Of a stretch of 37,417 nucleotides of DNA, positions 8,563 through 35,494 are shown piece by piece. Both the position numbers and the translations under genes were made by a program. The DNA is taken from contig CASFKR010000008.1 of assembly GCA_949295265.1 (NCBI GenBank), positions 1 through 37,417 of the forward strand, read 5' to 3'. Position 1 is the stretch's first letter, and each line of letters starts with the position of its first letter. The DNA comes from an uncultured Verrucomicrobiota bacterium. Lineage in GTDB: Bacteria; Verrucomicrobiota; Kiritimatiellia; RFP12; UBA3636. The notes beneath the pieces are model-generated. The model did no database searches. It had not been told where the DNA came from and saw only the letters and a list, made by a program, of their open reading frames with translations.

Positions 8563-11500
8563 ATGAAATCAAAACATCTGCTTGGCGTATCTGCATTGAC
8601 GGCCGTGGCACTGACCACCGTCATTGCGTTTGGCCAGCCTCCGAAGGCCGTTCTAAACGCCAGTCAGCTCGGTGTCGAAGATCTGGATTTGGACTTGGAT
8701 CTCGGCCTCGACGAAATCGAAACCACAACTGCGGCAGAGTCCGCTCAACCAGTCGCGGAAGCGGCTGCAGATGCGGACTTGGATCTTGCTGCCATTCTCG
8801 ATGATGCTGAAGATACCGCAACCGAAGCGGCTGAAACGGTAGAAGAGACGGCTGACGCCCTGCTGGAAGACCTCGATGTCGCGGATGCGGCAGAGGAAGC
8901 GGTTGAACCCGTAGAGGCAGCCGTTGAGGAAGTCGCGGAAACGCTCCCTGAGGCTGAGCCCGTCGTTGAGGAAGCGGTCGCCGAAGTCGCCGAGCCCGTC
9001 GTTGAGGAAGCCGCGGAAGCGGTTGAGGAAGTCGCGGAAGCGCTTCCTGAGGCTGAGCCCGTCGTTGAGGAAGCGGTTGCCGAAGTCGCCGAGCCCGTCG
9101 TTGAGGAAGCCGCGGAAGCGGTTGAGGAAGTCGCAGAAGCGCTCCCCGAGGCAGAGCCCGTCGCCGAAGCGGTCACCGAAGTCGCCGAGCCTGCCGTCGA
9201 GGAAGTTGCGGATGCACTTCCCGAGGCTGAGCCCGTTGTCGAGGAGGTCGCCGAAGTTGTTGAGGCGGCTCCCGCTCCCGCCGTTGCTCCCGCTGCGCTG
9301 GAGGTCGATGAAGACCTCGGCGAAACGATTGATGACATTCTCGATGCCAGCCTCTTTGGTGAGGCCCCGGCCGAGGCTCCTGCGGCTGTTGCCGTAGAGG
9401 CGGCTGAAGCGCCCGCCGCCGAGCCCGTCGCGGAAGTGGCCGTCGAGCCCGTCGCGGAAGTGGCCGAGGCTGCTCTCGAAGATGCACCGCCCGCCGCTGA
9501 ATCCGTCTCCGTTGCCGCACCCGCCGAGCCCGAGGTGATTGATCCGAGCGCTCAGGAAGATTCGGAAATGGCCAAGATTGAGTCCGTCCGCCGTCAGCTC
9601 CTGATCAAGCATGGACGCGACTGCCTCCAGCAGGGCAAAGACAATCTGGCCGTCGGCAACTGGCAGCGCGCCATTGACAAGTTTAACGACGTCATCCGTT
9701 TCCTCCCCGAAATGGATTCGACGCGCGATGATATTCTCGCGGCAGAAACCGGTCTCGGAGAAGCCTATTACCGCATTGCCTGTGATCTGCGGGATAAGCA
9801 GTCCTGGGAAGAGGCCGAGAAGAACTGCCGCGAGGCCCGTTCGCACCAGCACCCCAAGGCGGATGACCTGCTCAAGGAAATCCGCGATCTCCAGACGAAT
9901 CCGCCGCAGCCGCCGCCCAAAGTCGTGCTGCCCCGCAAGGATCAGCCCGAATACAAGGCGCAGGTCAAGGATATCGAGGAGCGCCTCAAGCTCGCCCGTC
10001 AGTACTATGCCACCGGTGAGTATGACCAGTGCGAGATGTATACGGAGCTCATCCTCCGCGATTACCCTTGGTGCCCCGAAGCCATTCGCATGCTCAAGAA
10101 GCTCGATCGCGCCATCAAGCGCTACAACTACGAAGAGCGCGAAATGACCCGCGACCGCATGATTTCCGATGTGATCAAGACCTGGGTTCCGCAGAACTAC
10201 GGCAATGATTACACCGAAACCGATGCCCTTATTTCTTCGGAAGGCGAAGGCACGCGCGGCACCGGCAGCCCCGAGCTGACTGCCGAGATGCGGATTCGCG
10301 ACAAGATGCGTCGCATCGTCATCCCTGAAATCGATTTCCGTCAGGCCAACATCACCGATGTGGTCGTCTTCCTCGGCGACTCCTCCCGTGAGTACGATGA
10401 TGAAGATGTCGCCCCCGAGGATCGTGGCGTCAACTTCGTTCTCGACCTCGGCGACGGCGGCGCTTCCTCCGCTCCCGCCGCGGCGGTTGTCGATGATCCG
10501 TGGAATGCCCCCGTCGAACCGGTTGCGGATGCGAATCCCAGCGGCGTTCCCGCCCTGACCATCAAGTCGCGCTACGTCTCCCTGCAGTCGACGCTCGACA
10601 TGATTATGGATATGTCCGGCCTCAAGTACCGCATTCAGGGCAACGTCGTCATGATCATGCCCAAGAACAAGGCTGAGGGCGAACTGATTCACCGCATGTA
10701 CAACGTGCTGCCGTCCATCGGCGAGCGCATCAACACCATCGGCGGCTCGGACAACCAGGGCTCCGGCGATTCCGGCGATCCCTTCGCCATGTCCGCCGGC
10801 ACCACGGAAACCACGACTGACTGGAAGGGCTTCTTCCAGAAGCTCGGCGTCAACTGGCCCGATGAGTCTTCCGTCACCTACATGCCCTCCATCGGCAAAC
10901 TGGTTGTGAAGAACACGGCGACCAACCTCGCCACCCTCGAGCAGGTCCTCGGCGCCCTTAACGTGACGCCGTTCCAGGTCGAAGTGGAAGTCCGCTTTGT
11001 CGAAGTTCAGCAGACGGACCTCACCTCGCTCGGTCTGGAGTGGATTCTCAACGACGACTGGGAGATGCTCGAGCACGATGGCGATTCTCATCTCTCGCCC
11101 GCCGCCCGCCGCCGCATCTCGATGCGTTCCGGCTCTATCAACAGCGGCTTCAACTACCTGAGCAACAACGCCAACATCGACATCAACGGCGGCAACCCGA
11201 TTGCCGACAACATCGCCACCTTCTCCTCGATTCTCACGAATCCGGAAGTGAGCATGGTCATCCACGCGCTCGCCAACAAGAGCAACGCAGACCTGCTCTC
11301 CGCGCCGAAGGTTGTCGCGATGAACGGCTCCCAGGCTACCGTCAAGACGGTCGTCGAATACATCTACCCGACCGAATACGATGTGGAAATGCTCGAGTCT
11401 GAGGACGAAGACGGCAACAGCTCCTACTCCGGCGCCGTCGTTGAACCGCAGAACTTCTTCACGCGCGAAGTCGGCGTCATCCTCCAGGTCACGCCTCGTG

Positions 11501-23030: not shown

Positions 23031-23225
23031 CCTTCGCTGCGCGCTCGCGAGCCGTCCTGTCCGTCCTGTCCGTCCTGTTCGTCCTGTTTTCGGCTCGCGC
23101 CCCGCTGGCTTCGTTGCGCTGGCTTCGCCCCAGGCGGCCATACCGCCTTCTAAAAAGTCCTTATTTGACACCCTGGTCGGAACGTTAGTGGAGGTTTCAG
23201 AAGGGGGCTACTCCGTGTGGCTCAA
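23031..23225 (+). repeat. Composite intergenic repeat, copy B (most complete)
   Basis: Blocks in order: GC-rich lead (23031-23046); GCGAGCC arm (23047-23053); four 9-bp units CGTCCTGTC/T (23053-23088); GGCTCGC arm (23092-23098); linker (23099-23127); GGCGG-CCATA-CCGCC hairpin (23133-23147); 42-bp core (23152-23193); tail CTCCGTGTGGCTCAA (23211-23225). 23031-23127 equals 35385-35490 apart from one base and one extra 9-bp unit there. A second CTCCGTGTGGCTCA lies at 23265-23278. No gene is visible in 22967-23439. Confidence 0.85.
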
Positions 23226-25695: not shown

Positions 25696-27774
25696 CTAGG
25701 CGGAGGTTTGGGTGGTGACGAGGCGGGCGTAGAAGCCGGGGGCGTGCGCGAGGGCCTCGTGGGTGCCATGCTGGGAGATGTGGCCGTCTTCGAGCACGAT
25801 AATCTGGTGGCATCGTGCGGCCATGGAAACGCGCTGGGAGACGATGATGGCGGTCTTGCCCTGCATGAGCTGCGTGAGCGTTTCCTGGATTTTGCGCTCG
25901 GTGTCGGCATCGAGGGCGGAGGTCACATCGTCGAGGATGAGAATTTCCGGATCGGTGATGAGGGCGCGGGCGATGGATATGCGCTGCCGCTGACCCCCGG
26001 AGAGGGTCGTCCCTTTTTCGCCGATGATGGTCTCGTACTGCACGGGAAGCCGCATGATGAAATCGTGGCAGTCTGCGGCCTTGGCGGCATTCATGATCTG
26101 CGTGGGGCTGGCATTCGGCGAACCGTAGATGATGTTCATTCGGACGGTGCCGCTGAGAATCTGCGCCTCCTGCGGAACCATGGAAACGCCGCGGTGCAGG
26201 GTCTGCTGCGTAAACTTGTCGAGCGGAGTCTGATCGATGCGGATGACGCCGGTTGTGGGATCGTAGAGACGCGCCAGCAGATTGACCAGCGTCGTTTTAC
26301 CGGCGCCGGAGGGACCCATGATGCACGTCCATTTACCGGCGGGGATAAAGGCGTTGATATTGGAGAGAACCAGCGGCGAGCGTTCGCTGTAGCGGAAGGA
26401 GAGATTTTCGATGAAAACGCCCTGCCGTACCGGCGGCTGGAAAGGAACGGCATCCGGCGCATCGGGAATCTCGTTTTTGTTTTCGAGCGTGTAGGCGACG
26501 CGCTGAATGACCGCAAAAAGCCCGGCGATATCCGACGAAACCTGCGTCAGCTGAACGATGGGCGTGAAGAGGTTCACCGCGGCGCCGTAGATGAACATCA
26601 TCTTGCCGAGCGTCATGGAGCCGTCCAGCACGCAGTAGGTGCAGTAGATGAAGATGCCCTGCGAAACGAAGGCGGTGAGCAGCTGGGCAAAGCGCCCGAT
26701 GCCGGCGGCGAGCCGCTGCTGCGCCAGCGTGTCGCGCTGCAGGACCGCCGAAAGCCGGTAGAAATTGCGCCGCTCCGCGCCCTCACGCCCGTAGGCGAAA
26801 ATGGCTTTGATGGCGTCGAGCTTCTGGGAGACAAGCCCCCAGAGGCAGGAATTGGAATGCCGCGCCTCTTTGTGGAATTCCTTGACGCGGATCTGGTTGT
26901 TGCGCATCACCAGCGTGTACGGCACGGCGGCGGCAACCACCGCCAGCGCACAGACCCAGTCGAGCGTAAAGAGAATGACGAGGCCCACCAGGAACATGAA
27001 CGTCTGCGAAACAACCGTGGCAATGACGTTGAGGAGCATGCCCTGGATGAACCCGACATCGGACATCACACGCGCGAGCAGGCGCCCGGGCGTCGTCGCC
27101 TGGTGATACCCGCTGGAAAGGCCAACAATCTTCTGGTGGACGGCGCCGCGCAGCGCAACGGTCATCCGGTGGGCGACTTTGTGCCGGGAACTGATGGCGA
27201 TGCGCCCGCCGACATTGAGCAGGATGACCGTCGAGAGGTAGATGACGAAGAGCCCGAAGAGGCGCAAGCCCGCATCGGGCGGACGCGCGGAGGCGGATTT
27301 CTCGAGGCGGTACGCCTCCGAAACGCGCCCTTCGGTGCGGCGCGCCCGCTCCTCGGAGACGGGCGCCACGAAGGCGCTCAGCGCGGAACTTTCATCGCGG
27401 TCGCGCACATACGGGGCGTCGGCAACGCGGTCCGGCGCCGTGGCGCGCGCCCGCCAGTCCTGCACGACGGCGGGCGGATCGACGACGAGAATTTTGTCGA
27501 TGACGACCTGCCCGTAGTAGGACATCAGATACACGGAGCAGGCGGAAGCCGTCGTAATGAGCAGATAGATGAGAAGCGGGACCTTGTGCGGCCAGATGTA
27601 GCCGAAAAAGAACATCGAGAGCAGCCGCAGCGGCTTGGTGTAGGTGTACACCTCGCGCGGCGGGCGGTACGGCACGTCGCGGTCCGCCCAGCGCGGGCGG
27701 CGCCGGCGGAAGCCGCCGCCGGTGCGCTCTTGCGGCGGCGGATTGGCGGCGGGGGCGTCATTCATCGGTTTCAT
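25696..27774 (-). CDS. ABC exporter half with degenerate ATPase motifs
   Basis: From the ATG at 27774 this is 692 residues; ATG at 27765 is an alternative. Six membrane helices precede a nucleotide-binding domain with Walker A GPSGAGKTT (about 485) and signature LSGGQRQ (about 590). Walker B is ILILDDVTS (about 613), where Asp replaces the catalytic Glu. At the H-loop, SQRVS (about 644) has Gln instead of His. These are hallmarks of the degenerate subunit in heterodimeric exporters such as TM287/288. Between helices 1 and 2 there is an added external segment of about 75 charged residues. Its start overlaps the end of the partner gene, so the two are translationally coupled. It is the last gene of the export operon. 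The substrate is unknown. Confidence 0.9.
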   Translation of the reverse strand: MKPMNDAPAANPPPQERTGGGFRRRRPRWADRDVPYRPPREVYTYTKPLRLLSMFFFGYIWPHKVPLLIYLLITTASACSVYLMSYYGQVVIDKILVVDPPAVVQDWRARATAPDRVADAPYVRDRDESSALSAFVAPVSEERARRTEGRVSEAYRLEKSASARPPDAGLRLFGLFVIYLSTVILLNVGGRIAISSRHKVAHRMTVALRGAVHQKIVGLSSGYHQATTPGRLLARVMSDVGFIQGMLLNVIATVVSQTFMFLVGLVILFTLDWVCALAVVAAAVPYTLVMRNNQIRVKEFHKEARHSNSCLWGLVSQKLDAIKAIFAYGREGAERRNFYRLSAVLQRDTLAQQRLAAGIGRFAQLLTAFVSQGIFIYCTYCVLDGSMTLGKMMFIYGAAVNLFTPIVQLTQVSSDIAGLFAVIQRVAYTLENKNEIPDAPDAVPFQPPVRQGVFIENLSFRYSERSPLVLSNINAFIPAGKWTCIMGPSGAGKTTLVNLLARLYDPTTGVIRIDQTPLDKFTQQTLHRGVSMVPQEAQILSGTVRMNIIYGSPNASPTQIMNAAKAADCHDFIMRLPVQYETIIGEKGTTLSGGQRQRISIARALITDPEILILDDVTSALDADTERKIQETLTQLMQGKTAIIVSQRVSMAARCHQIIVLEDGHISQHGTHEALAHAPGFYARLVTTQTSA

Positions 27775-29533
27775 CGGTGATGACCCCCTTTCCGGCATGC
27801 TTCTCGTAGAGTTCACGGTAACGGCCGCCCGGAATGGCCATGAGCTCGTCGTGGGTTCCGGTTTCGGCGATGACGCCGCCGTCGAGCAGGATGATCCGGT
27901 CGGCGTTGCGGATGGTGCTCAGGCGGTGCGCGACGATGAACGAGGTGCGCCCCTCGAGGAAGCGGTCCATGGCGCGCTGGATCGCTTTTTCGGACTCGCT
28001 GTCGAGGGAACTGGTCGCCTCGTCCATGATGATGATGGCGGGGTTGGCGAGGACGGCGCGGGCGATGGAAATGCGCTGTTTCTGCCCGATGGAGAGCTGC
28101 ACGTCGCGGTCGCCGATGACGGCATCGTAGCCGTTGCGGATGGCGAGGATGTCCTCGTGGATTTCGGCGATTTTCGCGGCGTTGACAACCTCGTCCATCG
28201 TGGCGTCGGGGCGCGCGTAGCGGATGTTGTCCGCAATGGAGACGGTAAAGAGGAGCGACTCCTGCAGTACGATGCCGAACTGCGAACGCAGGGAATCGAG
28301 CGCCACGTCGCGGATATCGTGCCCGTCGATGCGGATCGTACCGGCGGAAACATCGTAGAGCCGCATGATGAGCGAGAGAATCGTCGTTTTGCCGCAGCCG
28401 GTCGGCCCCACCAGGGCGATGGTCTGCCCGGGCTTCACGTGGACGTCGAGGTCGCGGATGACGGGGCGCCCCGGAATGTACGCGAAAGAGATGTGGTCGA
28501 GGTCGACCTGCCCGCGGACGCGCGGAAGGCGGAGCGCATGAGGCTTGGAGACGATTTCCGGTTTCTGGTCGAGAATCTCGAACAGGCGGTCGGTGGAGAT
28601 GCGCACATTCTGGAGCTGTTCGGCGAGCTGGGAAAAGCGGACGGCCGGCCAGAGAATCTGCATGGCGTACGTGGTGAAGGCCGTGACGTCGCCGTAGTTG
28701 GCGGAGCCGTCGAGCACCATGGCGCAGCCGAGGAAGTAAATCGAAACGCGCCCGATTTCCTGCAGCAGCTGCGTGTTGTACGAAAAGGTGGTGGAGGCTT
28801 TCCAGCTTTCGTGCGCGTGTGTGGTGGTTTCTTCGGACTGTTCGTCGAAATGGAAATTCTCGCGGTTTTCCGCGGCATAGGTCTTCACCGTCAGGTTGGC
28901 CACGAGGCGGTTCTGAACGCCGGCCGAAAGCCTGTCGTTCATGTTCTGCCAGCGGCGCGTCGCCTTGCGGATGCGCGCGATGCTCAATTTGAAATTGACG
29001 ACGAAGAGGGCGACGACGATGAGAATCGGCAGGGCCAGGCGCCAGTTGATGTAGAGCGTGGCGGAAATGGCGAAGAGCGAGCAGACGAGGTCGGAGACGA
29101 CCTGGATGGAATTGGCACCGAGGATCTGCTGCATCGTGGTGCTGTCGCCCATCAGCCGGTTGATGAGTTTGCCGGTGCTGTATTTTCCGAAGAAGCCGAT
29201 GTGGAGTTTGAGCAGATGGCTGTAGACGTGCATGCGCACATCGAGCACGAATTTCTGCCCGATGTACGCAATCCCGAGGACCTGCAGAAAACTGACGAAC
29301 GCATGCAGGACGGGCGTTGCGAAAATCAGCACGATGAGCCCCGGGAGAATCTCCGTGTGCCGCTCGCCGATGACGTCGTTGATGACGGCGCGCGTGAAGA
29401 GCGGCGGCAGCATCGCCAGGATGGAGATGACGCCAGTGGCGAAAATCAGCTGGAGAATGCGCCGCCGGAAAGGACGCATGAACGGAAGAATCTTCCGCAG
29501 CGTACTTTGCCCGGATTCCTCCGGGACCATCAT
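27758..29533 (-). CDS. ABC exporter half with catalytic ATPase motifs
   Basis: This 591-residue half-transporter (ATG at 29533; a GTG at 29554 is possible) has six membrane helices and then Walker A GPTGCGKTT (about 375). Walker B is IIIMDEATSSLD with the catalytic Glu, and the H-loop AHRLS is intact. Its signature is LSIGQKQ rather than LSGGQ. In a heterodimer that altered signature would face the partner's degenerate Walker site, giving one active and one inactive site, as in known asymmetric exporters. The family exports lipids, peptides or drugs. It follows the adaptor gene by about 80 bp and overlaps the second half by 17 bp. Confidence 0.92.
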   Translation of the reverse strand: MMVPEESGQSTLRKILPFMRPFRRRILQLIFATGVISILAMLPPLFTRAVINDVIGERHTEILPGLIVLIFATPVLHAFVSFLQVLGIAYIGQKFVLDVRMHVYSHLLKLHIGFFGKYSTGKLINRLMGDSTTMQQILGANSIQVVSDLVCSLFAISATLYINWRLALPILIVVALFVVNFKLSIARIRKATRRWQNMNDRLSAGVQNRLVANLTVKTYAAENRENFHFDEQSEETTTHAHESWKASTTFSYNTQLLQEIGRVSIYFLGCAMVLDGSANYGDVTAFTTYAMQILWPAVRFSQLAEQLQNVRISTDRLFEILDQKPEIVSKPHALRLPRVRGQVDLDHISFAYIPGRPVIRDLDVHVKPGQTIALVGPTGCGKTTILSLIMRLYDVSAGTIRIDGHDIRDVALDSLRSQFGIVLQESLLFTVSIADNIRYARPDATMDEVVNAAKIAEIHEDILAIRNGYDAVIGDRDVQLSIGQKQRISIARAVLANPAIIIMDEATSSLDSESEKAIQRAMDRFLEGRTSFIVAHRLSTIRNADRIILLDGGVIAETGTHDELMAIPGGRYRELYEKHAGKGVITDETDE

Positions 29534-29611
29534 TTTGCGGGCGGCGGCACACACGGCGAAGAGGTGGCGGCGGGTCCGCCCTGCTACATGCGGCGGGGCG
29601 GGCGGGGCGGT

Positions 29612-30649
29612 TTAGGGCTGGAAGATGAGTGACCAGAGCGAGACGCGCCCGATGCGGATGCGCGCATTGGCGGAGGTGCCGGGCGCCACGGGCCAGTCTT
29701 TGCGGTCGAACGAGCAGTACACCACGCGGTAATTGTTGTCGCCGGAGCCTTCGACGACGTCGCGCATGGCTTCGACCTGCCCGTAGAAGCGCGTCGGAAT
29801 CAGCGTCCGGTAGGTGCCGAGGCGGAGTTTGACGCGCTGCCCGGGTTTCACGCGGGCGGCGTAGCGTTCCGGGACGCGGAGCTTGAGCAGGTTCACTTCG
29901 CCGTCGAACACTTCGTAGAGCACCATGTCGGGGCGCAGCAGTTCGCCCACGTAGAAGGTGTAGCGGAAGGCGCGGCCCGCGATGGGGGCGCGGATGGTGC
30001 GGTCGCGCAGCGCCGCCTCGGCGCGCTCGAGGGCTTCGCGCTTCGTGGCGAGTTCCTGCTTGAGCACGTCGATTTCAATCTGCCCGATGGTGAGGTCCGT
30101 CTCGCGGAGCGAACGCAGCGTCTCGCGGGAACGGGTGACGCCGAATTCGTCGTCCGAGAGCTTGCGGCCGGAGACGAGCCCCTTGTCGTGCAGGAGGCGC
30201 GTGAGCTTAAGCTGCTCTTCGGCATAGGAGAGCTCGAGCTCGGCGAGGCGGAGCCGCTCGTTGTGGGCGCGGAGCGTTTCCGCCACGGAGGCGGACTTGA
30301 GCGAGAGGCGCGACTCGGCTTCGGCGACCTGGCTGCGCGCTTCGCCGACGGCGGCGCGCTCCGCATCGTCCTCGAGCCGTACCAGCGGGTCGCCCGCTTT
30401 CACGTCATCGCCGGAAAAGACGAGGATTTCCGCAATGCGCCCCGTTGTGGCGCTCCGGGTTTCCGCATAGACCGACGTCGTGGCGTAGCCGGACGCTGCC
30501 GCGTACTTGGGCACGCGGATGAGGAAGCCGGTCGCGACGACGACGGCCGCAATGAGCAGCGCAACGCCGAGGTTGCGCAGGAGGCGGGAGGAACGTTCCG
30601 ACCGGGTCGACGGCATTTCCTCGCCGGCAGTGGTTCTGATGTCACCCAT
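29612..30649 (-). CDS. HlyD/membrane-fusion family adaptor
   Basis: This 345-residue protein has an N-terminal membrane helix (about 26-46). Split biotinyl-lipoyl-like halves lie at about 68-95 and 218-248, separated by a long coiled-coil hairpin (about 95-215), followed by a beta-barrel (about 250-335). It should bridge the inner-membrane ABC exporter and the TolC-like outer-membrane protein. GGAGA about 6 nt before the ATG at 30649 supports this start. It lies between the Cys-rich protein gene (30 bp upstream) and the ABC genes. Confidence 0.9.
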   Translation of the reverse strand: MGDIRTTAGEEMPSTRSERSSRLLRNLGVALLIAAVVVATGFLIRVPKYAAASGYATTSVYAETRSATTGRIAEILVFSGDDVKAGDPLVRLEDDAERAAVGEARSQVAEAESRLSLKSASVAETLRAHNERLRLAELELSYAEEQLKLTRLLHDKGLVSGRKLSDDEFGVTRSRETLRSLRETDLTIGQIEIDVLKQELATKREALERAEAALRDRTIRAPIAGRAFRYTFYVGELLRPDMVLYEVFDGEVNLLKLRVPERYAARVKPGQRVKLRLGTYRTLIPTRFYGQVEAMRDVVEGSGDNNYRVVYCSFDRKDWPVAPGTSANARIRIGRVSLWSLIFQP

Positions 30650-30679: not shown

Positions 30680-31489
30680 TTATTTGCGTTTGGTGGAGAT
30701 GAAGTCCTTGGCCAGTGAGCGGTAGCCCTCCGTTTCGTCGAGGTAGCGCTTGACGCAGAGGTTGCAGTTTTCGCAGGCCGTTTCGTAGCAGTTGCGATGC
30801 ACGCGCGAGGGATACATAGCGCGGAAGGCTTCGTAGCAGTCGTCCGAGCAGAAGCAGAAGCGGTCCTGCGAAGCGCCGAACGCGATGTGCAGCAGGTGGA
30901 AGCCCTCCTTTTCCGGCGAGGTTTCTTTGCCGCACCAGCCGCAGGTGAGGTTGAGCCGCTCGAGAATCTGCTTGCGCCGCTCCTCCAGTTCGCCCTGCTC
31001 CCAGTCGTACGCAATCCAGTCGACCGCATGCGCCTGAATGCGCGCCACGACGGCATCGTGGCGCACGACGAGCGCCGTGCCGTCCTTGACGATGTAGCAC
31101 CGGTCGCCGCAGATCGGCTCCTGCCGTCCGTGGACGTACACTTTGACGGAGCCGCTTCTCGGCATCGAGTAGGCGTTCCAGCCGCAGGCGTCGCAGACGG
31201 AGACGAACAGGTGCTGCTGGAGGCTTTCGCCGCACTGCGGGCAGCGTCCGCGCTGGAGCACATGGAGGCGCTTGACCGACTGTTCGGCGGCCGTGCGCAT
31301 TTCCTTGAAGGCTTCCTGCTGAATGCGGTCTCCGGCTTCTTCCTCGGAGAGCATCTCCAGGTCCGTCTTGAATTTATCCGGGTCGTCGTTGAAGAGCGCC
31401 TCGGAGAGGGGCGAGGAGGTGTCCGGGATGGCGGCGGGCGTCGTGTTTTTCCGGAACGGGTTCAGGAGGTACTGAAAGGGATTTTTCAT
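30680..31489 (-). CDS. Cysteine-rich, multi-zinc-finger-like protein in export operon
   Basis: This 269-residue protein has 15 cysteines, nearly all in CxxC-type groups. C83, C86, C99 and C102 form a zinc-ribbon pattern (CPQC...CDAC). C127 and C131 follow. C183/C186 with C214/C218 (CGWC...FCFCSDDCYEAF) resemble the FCS/TRASH-type finger. C234, C239, C242 and C245 form a last group that could be a metal or Fe-S site. There is no signal peptide or membrane helix, so it is probably cytosolic. I cannot name a family for the full chain. It starts 12 bp after the TolC-like gene and ends 30 bp before the adaptor gene, which ties it firmly to export. It might mature, deliver or sense the substrate; none of these is shown by sequence. 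Confidence 0.75.
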   Translation of the reverse strand: MKNPFQYLLNPFRKNTTPAAIPDTSSPLSEALFNDDPDKFKTDLEMLSEEEAGDRIQQEAFKEMRTAAEQSVKRLHVLQRGRCPQCGESLQQHLFVSVCDACGWNAYSMPRSGSVKVYVHGRQEPICGDRCYIVKDGTALVVRHDAVVARIQAHAVDWIAYDWEQGELEERRKQILERLNLTCGWCGKETSPEKEGFHLLHIAFGASQDRFCFCSDDCYEAFRAMYPSRVHRNCYETACENCNLCVKRYLDETEGYRSLAKDFISTKRK

Positions 31490-31501: not shown

Positions 31502-33082
31502 TCAAGGGGTAGGGGCGGCGGGGCGATCTTCCGCTGCGGCGGGCGCGCCGGGCTCATCGGGCAGGCGCCCGACGGTGCGCAGGAGCTCTGTCATCGCGGA
31601 AACGACTTCGCCGGCGACGCTGATCTGGCGGCGCGTCGCGCTGGTGAGGTCCTGCTGCGCGTCGAGCACGCTGCGGCTCGAGCCGTCCCCGAGCGCAAAG
31701 CGGTCGTCTTCGGCGGAGAGGGCGTCGGAGGCCGCGAGTACGGCATCGTGCGCCGTCTGCAGCCGGGCGCAGGCATTGGTGAAGGAGACGAGCGCCCGTT
31801 CGCGTGCGATGCGCTCGGTCAGCAGCGTGTTTTCGTAGTCGCGCTGCAGGGCGCGGGCTTCGGCGGCATCCGCTTCGATGCGCGCTTCATCGCCGCCGCT
31901 GAAGAGGTTGCGCCGGAAGATGAGCGCGACGGTGTAGCCGGTATCATTCCCGGAGTCGGCGTCCGTTTCCGAACGCCAGCCCGCGGAAAGGTTGAGGTTG
32001 AGTTCGTCGCGCAGATCCTCGGCGGTATGGCGCGTGGCGGCGGCGGCGCTTTGCGCGAGGGCGTGCGCGCGGCGCACGGTCGGCGAGGTCTGCTCGAGGT
32101 CCAGCGCCGCCAGCGGCGCGATGTCCAGCTGCGCGAGGGCGTCCGCCCAGCGCAGCAGCAGCTCCGGGTTGTCCGGCATGTCGCCGGGCAACTGCGCGAG
32201 CCCCAGCGCCTGCGCGAGCGTCGCGCTCTGGGTGCGGATGGACTGTCGTGCGCTCTCGAGTTCTTCGCGCCGGAGCGTGGCTTCGTAGCGGGCCGGGTAA
32301 ATCTGGTATTGCGCGAGGTCTTTGAGGCGGACGCGCTCCGTGGACTGCTCGAGGAGTTTTTCGGCGCGCGTCATGGCTTTCTCGATTTCTGCGGCATCCG
32401 CCGCCTCGAGGAGCCATTGCGCATACTGCTTGACGATTTCCGCGGAAATGTCGATGAGTTCTTTTTGCACGGCGCAGAGCTGCGCCGCTTCATCGAAGGA
32501 GAGCTGCTCCATTTCGAGCGCATTGAGCGCAAACGCGCGGTCGCGCAGCAGCGGGACGCGGAGCATGGCGCCCAGCCCTGTTTCCGCCGAGTCGCTTTCC
32601 GCCTCGCCGGTCGCATCGCTGTAGACAAGGGCGCCGACCCCGCCGTAGACGCCGCGCACCAGCGGCGCCTCCACGCCGGCGCCCGCATAGTTCGAGTTGG
32701 CGTCGATGACGCGGGAGAAGGTCGTGTGCGGCACGCCGGAGGGATCTTCGGTGCGCCCCGCCGCCGCCGAGAGCGCGGGCGAGCGAAACTGCAGGTCGGC
32801 GGCTTTCAGCAGCAGGGAGGCGCGGTCGGCGCGGTCGAGCTGCGCGAGGTAGCGCGGATGCGTCATCCGGTACGTCTGCAGCCAGGTGCAGAGACGCCCC
32901 GCTTCCGGCACCATGCCCAGAAGCGCGGCCGGAGCCGCTTCCGCCGATGCGGGTTGCACCGGTGCGGGCAAAGCCGGGGCGTTGGTGGCCGCAGCCGGTT
33001 CCGCCGCCACAGCCGCCGTTCCCGCCGTCAGGGCGAGAAGGACCGGCACAAAGGAAAGACAACGATTCTGTCTGTTGTTCAT
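31502..33082 (-). CDS. TolC-like outer-membrane efflux protein
   Basis: The ATG at 33082 gives 526 residues with a clear signal peptide (about 1-27, ending AVA-AE). An in-frame ATG at 33238 would hide it behind 52 unrelated residues. After an Ala/Pro linker there are two OEP repeats with long helices (about 80-290 and 320-510). The TolC-type segment FALGDGSSRSVLDAQQDLTS lies near 463. It should form the trimeric outer-membrane tunnel of the export system. It is the first gene of the minus-strand operon and has a long leader of about 220 nt behind a candidate promoter at 33308-33336. Confidence 0.9.
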   Translation of the reverse strand: MNNRQNRCLSFVPVLLALTAGTAAVAAEPAAATNAPALPAPVQPASAEAAPAALLGMVPEAGRLCTWLQTYRMTHPRYLAQLDRADRASLLLKAADLQFRSPALSAAAGRTEDPSGVPHTTFSRVIDANSNYAGAGVEAPLVRGVYGGVGALVYSDATGEAESDSAETGLGAMLRVPLLRDRAFALNALEMEQLSFDEAAQLCAVQKELIDISAEIVKQYAQWLLEAADAAEIEKAMTRAEKLLEQSTERVRLKDLAQYQIYPARYEATLRREELESARQSIRTQSATLAQALGLAQLPGDMPDNPELLLRWADALAQLDIAPLAALDLEQTSPTVRRAHALAQSAAAATRHTAEDLRDELNLNLSAGWRSETDADSGNDTGYTVALIFRRNLFSGGDEARIEADAAEARALQRDYENTLLTERIARERALVSFTNACARLQTAHDAVLAASDALSAEDDRFALGDGSSRSVLDAQQDLTSATRRQISVAGEVVSAMTELLRTVGRLPDEPGAPAAAEDRPAAPTP

Positions 33083-33307: not shown

Positions 33308-33336
33308 AGTATGCCCTTCCCGTAAAGGAAAGGCAA
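33308..33336 (-). promoter_or_regulatory. Candidate promoter with overlapping dyad for the export operon
   Basis: On the minus strand, TTGCCT (33336-33331), a 17-bp spacer and CATACT (33313-33308) fit a sigma70-like promoter. The spacer holds a near-palindrome, CCTTCCC-GTAAA-GGAAAGG on the plus strand (33315-33333, one mismatch), placed where a repressor would block polymerase. The intergenic stretch 33083-33468 otherwise holds the long leader and the hairpins at 33396-33468. Confidence 0.45.
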
Positions 33337-35202: not shown

Positions 35203-35260
35203 ACCCCCATTCTACCAGAAACCACAGCCCCGCGCCTCCCGCCCTCGCGCCCGCTGTCTC

Positions 35261-35494
35261 CGCTGCGCTCCCTCCGCTGCGCTGGCTTCGCCTCCGCCCC
35301 GCTGGCTTCGCTGCGCTGGCTTCGCCTCCCTCCGCTGCGCTCCCTCCGCTGCGCTCCCTCCGCTGCGCTCCTTTCGCTGCGCTCCCTTCGCTGCGCGCTC
35401 GCGAGCCGTCCTGTCCGTCCTGTCCGTCCTGTTCGTCCTGTTCGTCCTGTTTTCGGCTCGCGCCCCGCTGGCTTCGTTGCGCTGACTTCGTTCA
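35261..35494 (+). repeat. Composite intergenic repeat, copy C, with 14-bp tandem lead
   Basis: The left part (35261-35400) is built of repeats of CGCTGCGCTCCCTC/CTTCG units of about 14 bp. Then come the GCGAGCC arm (35401-35407), five 9-bp units (35407-35451), the GGCTCGC arm (35455-35461) and the linker (35462-35494). 35385-35490 is 106 bp against 97 bp in copy B: the same sequence with one extra 9-bp unit and one substitution. The hairpin, core and tail blocks of copies A and B are missing. It lies between divergent genes, and no gene is seen in 35203-35599. Confidence 0.85.

Follow-up and report, generated by a model that had tools for sequence, protein, structure and literature searches.

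ABC exporters are usually thought to act without dedicated soluble cytosolic partners, fused domains aside. In the exporters TM287/288, TmrAB and TAP one half has an Asp in place of the Walker B Glu, and none of them is known to need a zinc-finger partner. At the degenerate sites of heterodimeric ABC exporters, ATP hydrolysis is too slow to support transport (PMC7756269). In tripartite type I secretion of the HlyB-HlyD-TolC type, an ABC exporter is combined with an HlyD adaptor and a TolC channel, and the C39-like domain of HlyB tethers the cargo (PMC8277102). In the MlaFEDB lipid transporter, the small protein MlaB binds the subunit MlaF and is needed for the stability of MlaF and for the assembly of the complex (PMC7367683). 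Another unusual cytosolic protein associated with genes of the HlyD/TolC type occurs in the secondary SecA_DEAD/HlyD module of PVC bacteria (PMC4452313), the superphylum to which the bacterium studied here also belongs.

We analysed a window of 37,417 nucleotides, the whole stretch of contig CASFKR010000008.1 examined from an uncultured Verrucomicrobiota bacterium. Five genes on its minus strand encode, in this order, a TolC-type outer-membrane factor, an undescribed accessory protein rich in cysteine (hereafter the Cys protein), an HlyD-type periplasmic adaptor and two ABC half-exporters (ABC1 and ABC2). As in the HlyB-HlyD-TolC systems, exporter, adaptor and channel are thus encoded in one operon, but the locus differs from them in having two different half-exporters, an added Cys protein that is predicted to be cytosolic and no recurring cargo gene. 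It differs from the SecA_DEAD/HlyD module in that the latter has no ABC transporter and uses a SecA-type ATPase instead of a zinc protein. The components are of known kinds, whereas their combination is not.

The Cys gene occupies positions 30680..31489 (minus strand), as defined by the ORF translation and by homologues, and is present in one copy in the source 2.8 Mb draft genome. The 15 cysteines in 269 aa reported by the sequence-only reading were confirmed by counting them in the translation, and the placement of the gene between the outer-membrane and adaptor genes was also upheld, since Pfam assigned OEP/TolC, HlyD and two ABC_membrane+ABC_tran proteins to the four transport genes around it. 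The distances given earlier were likewise correct: the TolC stop (31502) lies 12 bp and the HlyD start (30649) 30 bp away. The TolC-type gene (31502..33082, minus strand; PF02321 OEP, E 1.7e-15) leads the recurring operon; its ORF is open from 33238, but the likely start of the protein is the ATG at 33082 and not 33238, which gives it the signal peptide MNNRQNRCLSFVPVLLALTAGTAAVAA. Upstream of this gene lies a terminator-like hairpin (33312..33335, minus strand, read from 33335 to 33312), identified by a consensus match only in a region where 10 such hairpins were observed and 7.0 expected; it likely parts the operon from the upstream solute-binding-protein gene and would mark the upstream operon boundary. 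The HlyD-type adaptor (29612..30649, minus strand; PF13437/PF16576) has the N-terminus MGDIRTTAGE.

Several repeats were observed elsewhere in the window. A 9-bp tandem repeat, CGTCCTGT[C/T], occurs at 23052-23088 and 35407-35451 with the C-then-T unit order in both places; seven two-unit matches were counted against 0 expected by chance, and none of the 244 loci compared had the three-unit form. A long imperfect tandem repeat at 8910-9212 has three copies of a 99-bp period with nested periods of 21-54 bp and units like GTTGAGGAAGCCG, and a G+C-rich array of about 10 copies of a 14-bp unit (35258-35396) lies between the solute-binding protein gene and a B12-binding radical SAM gene.

A single-protein query of genome contigs gave nothing, and homologues of the Cys protein were found with an alignment query. 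They were present in 54 genomes of the Verrucomicrobiota-phylum samples, with frequencies of 6/19 in the family, 11/162 in the order, 31/346 in the class and 41/388 in the phylum sample, the closest named relatives being Kiritimatiellae and Lentisphaeria. A scan of 84,980 species detected 77 loci, nearly all in Kiritimatiellae and Lentisphaeria, the others in Latescibacterota and Spirochaetota. The cultured Oligosphaera ethanolica DSM 24202 has the five-gene operon (L173). A full Lentisphaeria-type operon was also seen on a contig named Candidatus Paceibacterota (L144), which is probably mis-binned.

Wherever contigs are long enough, nearly all loci show the order TolC-Cys-HlyD-ABC1-ABC2, with the Cys gene in the same slot across the phylum, and 39 loci contain all five genes at strong scores. 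The sequence-only reading had proposed examining how often the gene accompanies the exporter genes in other genomes. No operon of this type without a Cys gene was found: at an HlyD profile cutoff of E 1e-45, all HlyD-positive genomes of the class (27/27) and of the phylum sample (40/40) also had the Cys gene, and the same was true of all 50 of 50 genomes carrying an HlyD orthologue. Among the 346 genomes of the class, both genes occurred in 27, the Cys gene only in 4 and HlyD only in 0; the corresponding numbers for the 388 genomes of the phylum sample were 40, 1 and 0. The Cys-positive genomes without HlyD were G180 and G298, where the gene lies at contig ends, G219, and G334, where a solitary Cys gene lies between gmk and fabF. 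TolC-Cys and HlyD are split between contigs in G475 and G535, the ABC pair is on a separate contig in G612 (the genome of L165), and four loci (L203, L204, L206 and L207) have the order ABC1-ABC2-Cys without TolC or HlyD. The contig with the solitary gene of G334 is also locus L205; its genome (G608) contains, at another site, a tandem ABC pair that shows the Walker B asymmetry described below. In one operon that is otherwise intact (L075:3704-8000 in G227), HlyD is separated from ABC1 by a stretch of some 5 kb with sugar-metabolism-like genes. Beyond the five genes, the neighbourhood survey revealed no conserved cargo or biosynthetic gene beside the operon; in some genomes the Cys gene adjoins recO.

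The picture is different outside the Verrucomicrobiota. In Spirochaetota, with three Cys loci, the Cys gene lies 3' of an ABC1-ABC2 pair that has neither TolC nor HlyD; in the spirochaete order the Cys gene and the ABC1 orthologue were found in the identical 2 of 26 genomes. The Cys gene is present in 29 of the 64 genomes of Latescibacterota, where it is often a convergent neighbour of ABC1: 28 genomes had both genes, 1 the Cys gene only, 3 ABC1 only and 32 neither (Fisher p 1e-13, a value that overstates independence because the genomes are related). The exceptions are G606, which has a Cys gene but no ABC1 that passes the cutoff, and three genomes with ABC1 and no detected Cys gene (G638, G668 and G670). 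The E-value cutoffs used here and above (1e-45, 1e-120 and 1e-130) were our own choice, made to part orthologues from the many ABC paralogues. The two genes can be unlinked on one contig, about 11 kb apart in G671 and about 86 kb apart in G649. In the same phylum, each of G651 and G652 carries two ABC1 orthologues, the Cys gene of G651 is in several pieces or copies (G651:C21:10162-11533), and an ABC1 orthologue of G644 (G644:C35:4869-6578) has internal stops (3 TGA, 1 TAA), perhaps reflecting a decayed gene or an assembly error. Since Spirochaetota keep the Cys protein without TolC and HlyD, and since in Latescibacterota it co-occurs with ABC1 even when sometimes unlinked, its constant partner is the ABC pair. 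The association with the exporter noted earlier thus holds, whereas the TolC/HlyD conduit is not an essential partner, as other phyla keep the Cys protein with the ABC pair alone. The similarity of distance matrices among the operon genes (r 0.73-0.92) was considered as contact evidence and set aside, as it mostly reflects shared ancestry.

The two half-exporters differ in their catalytic residues. ABC1 (27758..29554, minus strand; PF00664+PF00005) has a canonical Walker B Glu, an H-loop His and the signature LSxGQ, and motif counts over 59 sequences gave D-E in Walker B and AHR in the variants listed. ABC2 (25696..27816, minus strand; PF00664+PF00005) has the signature LSGGQ and degenerate catalytic residues, with D-D in Walker B in the commonest variants listed and an H-loop Gln (QR) in nearly all sequences of the window's type; ABC2 of Latescibacterota retains the H-loop His and has the Walker B Asp. 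The adjacency of the genes and their complementary defects suggest that ABC1 and ABC2 pair into an asymmetric heterodimer in which one ATP site is degenerate, similarly to TM287/288, TmrAB and TAP; PMC7756269 reviews this class of exporters. No C39 or peptidase-like N-domain was present among the listed Pfam matches of either protein.

We compared 42 homologues to define the conserved parts of the Cys protein. All motifs claimed from the sequence alone were present, and their interpretation as a zinc ribbon, an FCS/TRASH-like finger and a C4 group was retained: C83-x2-C86-x12-C99-x2-C102 in the ribbon-like module (residues 81-104; 31178..31249), C183-x2-C186 with FC214-x3-C218 in the finger (residues 183-226; 30812..30943) and C234-x4-C239-x2-C242-x2-C245 in the C4 group (residues 234-245; 30755..30790), all on the minus strand. 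The last eight of these cysteines (183, 186, 214, 218, 234, 239, 242 and 245) were invariant in the 42 homologues and also constant across three phyla (16 sequences), and the four ribbon cysteines were nearly invariant. Because C127, C132 and C212 vary, 12 of the 15 cysteines matter, as three four-Cys sites. This conservation exceeds chance and is accompanied by low dN/dS (0.03-0.13 in seven close pairs), indicating that the gene is under strong purifying selection. The median identity of the Cys protein (0.49) was higher than that of HlyD (0.44) and TolC (0.32) and about equal to that of ABC2 (0.48). Although its gene lies inside an export operon, the Cys protein is hence most improbable as the exported cargo itself: it is conserved above TolC and HlyD, inspection of its sequence revealed neither a double-glycine leader nor an RTX repeat, and its gene also occurs at sites remote from the exporter. 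We therefore rejected this as a lead explanation.

Further residues were invariant in the 42 homologues, namely W185, F213, Y226, R229, R232, Y235 and R248, and H231 was nearly so. That R229, R232, Y235 and H231 exceed the needs of zinc sites, together with the operon position, would be compatible with an enzyme that modifies or matures the exported compound before export. However, no enzyme family was matched, the ribbon, small barrel and treble-clef-like finger are typical binding modules, and natural short forms reduce the core to about 100 residues, so that we regard an enzymatic role as quite unlikely. In these short forms the operon slot is unchanged: the protein of G045 lacks the entire N-terminal half, and those of G172, G173 and G178 have half a ribbon left, no barrel and an intact C-terminal module. 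Since the short forms keep essentially the C-terminal module only, the working core of the protein corresponds to residues about 183-249.

AlphaFold2 run on the single sequence gave an unusable model (pLDDT 36), and a 42-row alignment was used instead (mean pLDDT 75.7; about 94-97 for residues 111-170). The model comprises, in order, a long helix (49-79), the ribbon, a confidently predicted barrel at about 105-163 (31001..31177, minus strand), a helix (165-179), the finger and the C4 group, the last of which is modelled poorly. In this model the barrel is Sm/SH3-like, and its best PDB matches in Foldseek were YgdR/DUF903-type and Sm-like barrels with E 0.05 or weaker; searches with the whole chain against PDB and BFVD returned weak barrel matches only and no whole-protein relative. 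The resemblance to Sm folds could point to a general cytosolic protein outside export, for instance an RNA-binding one, co-inherited through lineage history, and this would agree with those genomes in which the gene adjoins recO or is flanked by gmk and fabF. Yet the patchy presence of the gene (31/346, 41/388, 2/26 and 29/64 genomes) tracks the exporter in each group, and some in-operon copies have neither barrel nor ribbon; we consider such a role very unlikely. A clear match to a housekeeping family, which would have spoken against an undescribed protein system, was not found in Pfam, NCBIfam, PHROG or PDB searches, and the housekeeping explanation was rejected as the lead one.

More specifically, the Cys protein had no match at curated cut-offs in Pfam and NCBIfam, none convincing in PHROG and none among PDB sequences, and no member among those scanned was shown to reach a Pfam gathering score. 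The protein of the window scored 12.2 bits against YHS (Pfam cut-off 30.3), which was sub-threshold in 29 of 42 members; the best members reached E values of about 1e-3 to 1e-4 for YHS and zf-FCS (zf-FCS best 3e-4) and 3e-5 for DUF7576. In PDB the nearest relatives of the finger were a phenol hydroxylase PhN chain (E 0.03) and ZMYM5 chains, all sub-threshold, and the ribbon module had sub-threshold zinc-ribbon matches and a bL32-like PDB match (E 0.004). The finger agrees with TRASH, YHS and zf-FCS (MYM-type) fingers in the C-x2-C ... FC-x3-C spacing and in the F after the last Cys. Unlike in those families, a ribbon and a barrel come before it and the invariant group R-x-H-R-N-C-Y-x3-C-x2-C-x2-C comes after it, which gives a different architecture. 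A literature search limited to open-licence papers found no description of such a protein.

The relatedness of the finger to TRASH/YHS domains, which are proposed transition-metal binders, raises the question of a metal or redox sensor or metallochaperone, in which the finger or the C4 group would bind a labile metal (Cu, Zn, Fe) or an Fe-S cluster and switch an exporter of a metal chelate or thiol compound. The hosts are largely anaerobic lineages, and Fer4_21 was found sub-threshold in 7 of 16 members. One YHS domain has been shown to render an adenylyl cyclase copper-activated (PMC4626032). Nevertheless, every match is below or near threshold, the eight invariant cysteines are grouped in fours as expected of structural sites, no metal-resistance gene was seen to recur among the neighbours, and the Rfam scan of the window found no element such as a metal riboswitch. 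We thus regard sensing as unlikely, though less so than the other alternatives.

Directly supported by the data are the co-inheritance of the Cys protein with the ABC pair, its place in the operon, the purifying selection on it, its invariant core and the existence of short forms. The near-constant joint presence or absence of protein and pump in three bacterial groups suggests that the Cys protein is probably a hitherto missing functional component of the pump, and we favour, as rather likely, its role as a dedicated cytosolic accessory subunit of the asymmetric heterodimeric ABC exporter. A cytosolic location is suggested because no signal peptide was seen in the Cys protein, nor was an obvious transmembrane segment. 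Its three four-Cys sites, probably occupied by zinc, would hold the fold together, and the protein could dock on the ABC pair from the cytosol, close to the inner membrane. From there the C-terminal double-finger module (residues 183-249) would load cargo or control the ATPase cycle, and the ribbon and barrel would provide extra contacts that are dispensable in some lineages. In the lineage of the window, HlyD and TolC would join the exporter so that it spans both membranes. By analogy, the Cys protein may act on its exporter as MlaB acts on MlaF, or as the C39-like domain serves HlyB; the proposed parallel with MlaB is that of a small protein in the cytosol serving a single ABC machine, although MlaB is a STAS domain and the Cys protein has no STAS match among the families listed and no sequence relation to it was found. 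Two possible contacts found little or no support. The N-terminus has a positive start and an acidic linker, but its hydrophobic moment (z 0.44 above shuffles) is weak for an amphipathic membrane anchor, and the HlyD N-tail (MGDxRTTxGE), a candidate docking site, does not exceed the remainder of HlyD in conservation. A wider role of the Cys protein is possible because G334 and several Latescibacterota carry its gene away from ABC genes.

In a broader perspective, we see about an even chance that the Cys protein represents a new class of subunit for ABC exporters: a cytosolic adaptor structured by metal and present in at least three phyla, which an asymmetric heterodimeric exporter requires for cargo loading or gating and whose entire essential function lies in a module of ~65 residues and eight invariant cysteines. 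The idea is testable since O. ethanolica is cultured and carries the operon. If it is true, a protein that accompanies the same heterodimeric exporter in three phyla, also where the genes are unlinked, would imply a controlled or adaptor-fed exporter, and it would offer a handle on the purpose of asymmetric ATP sites.
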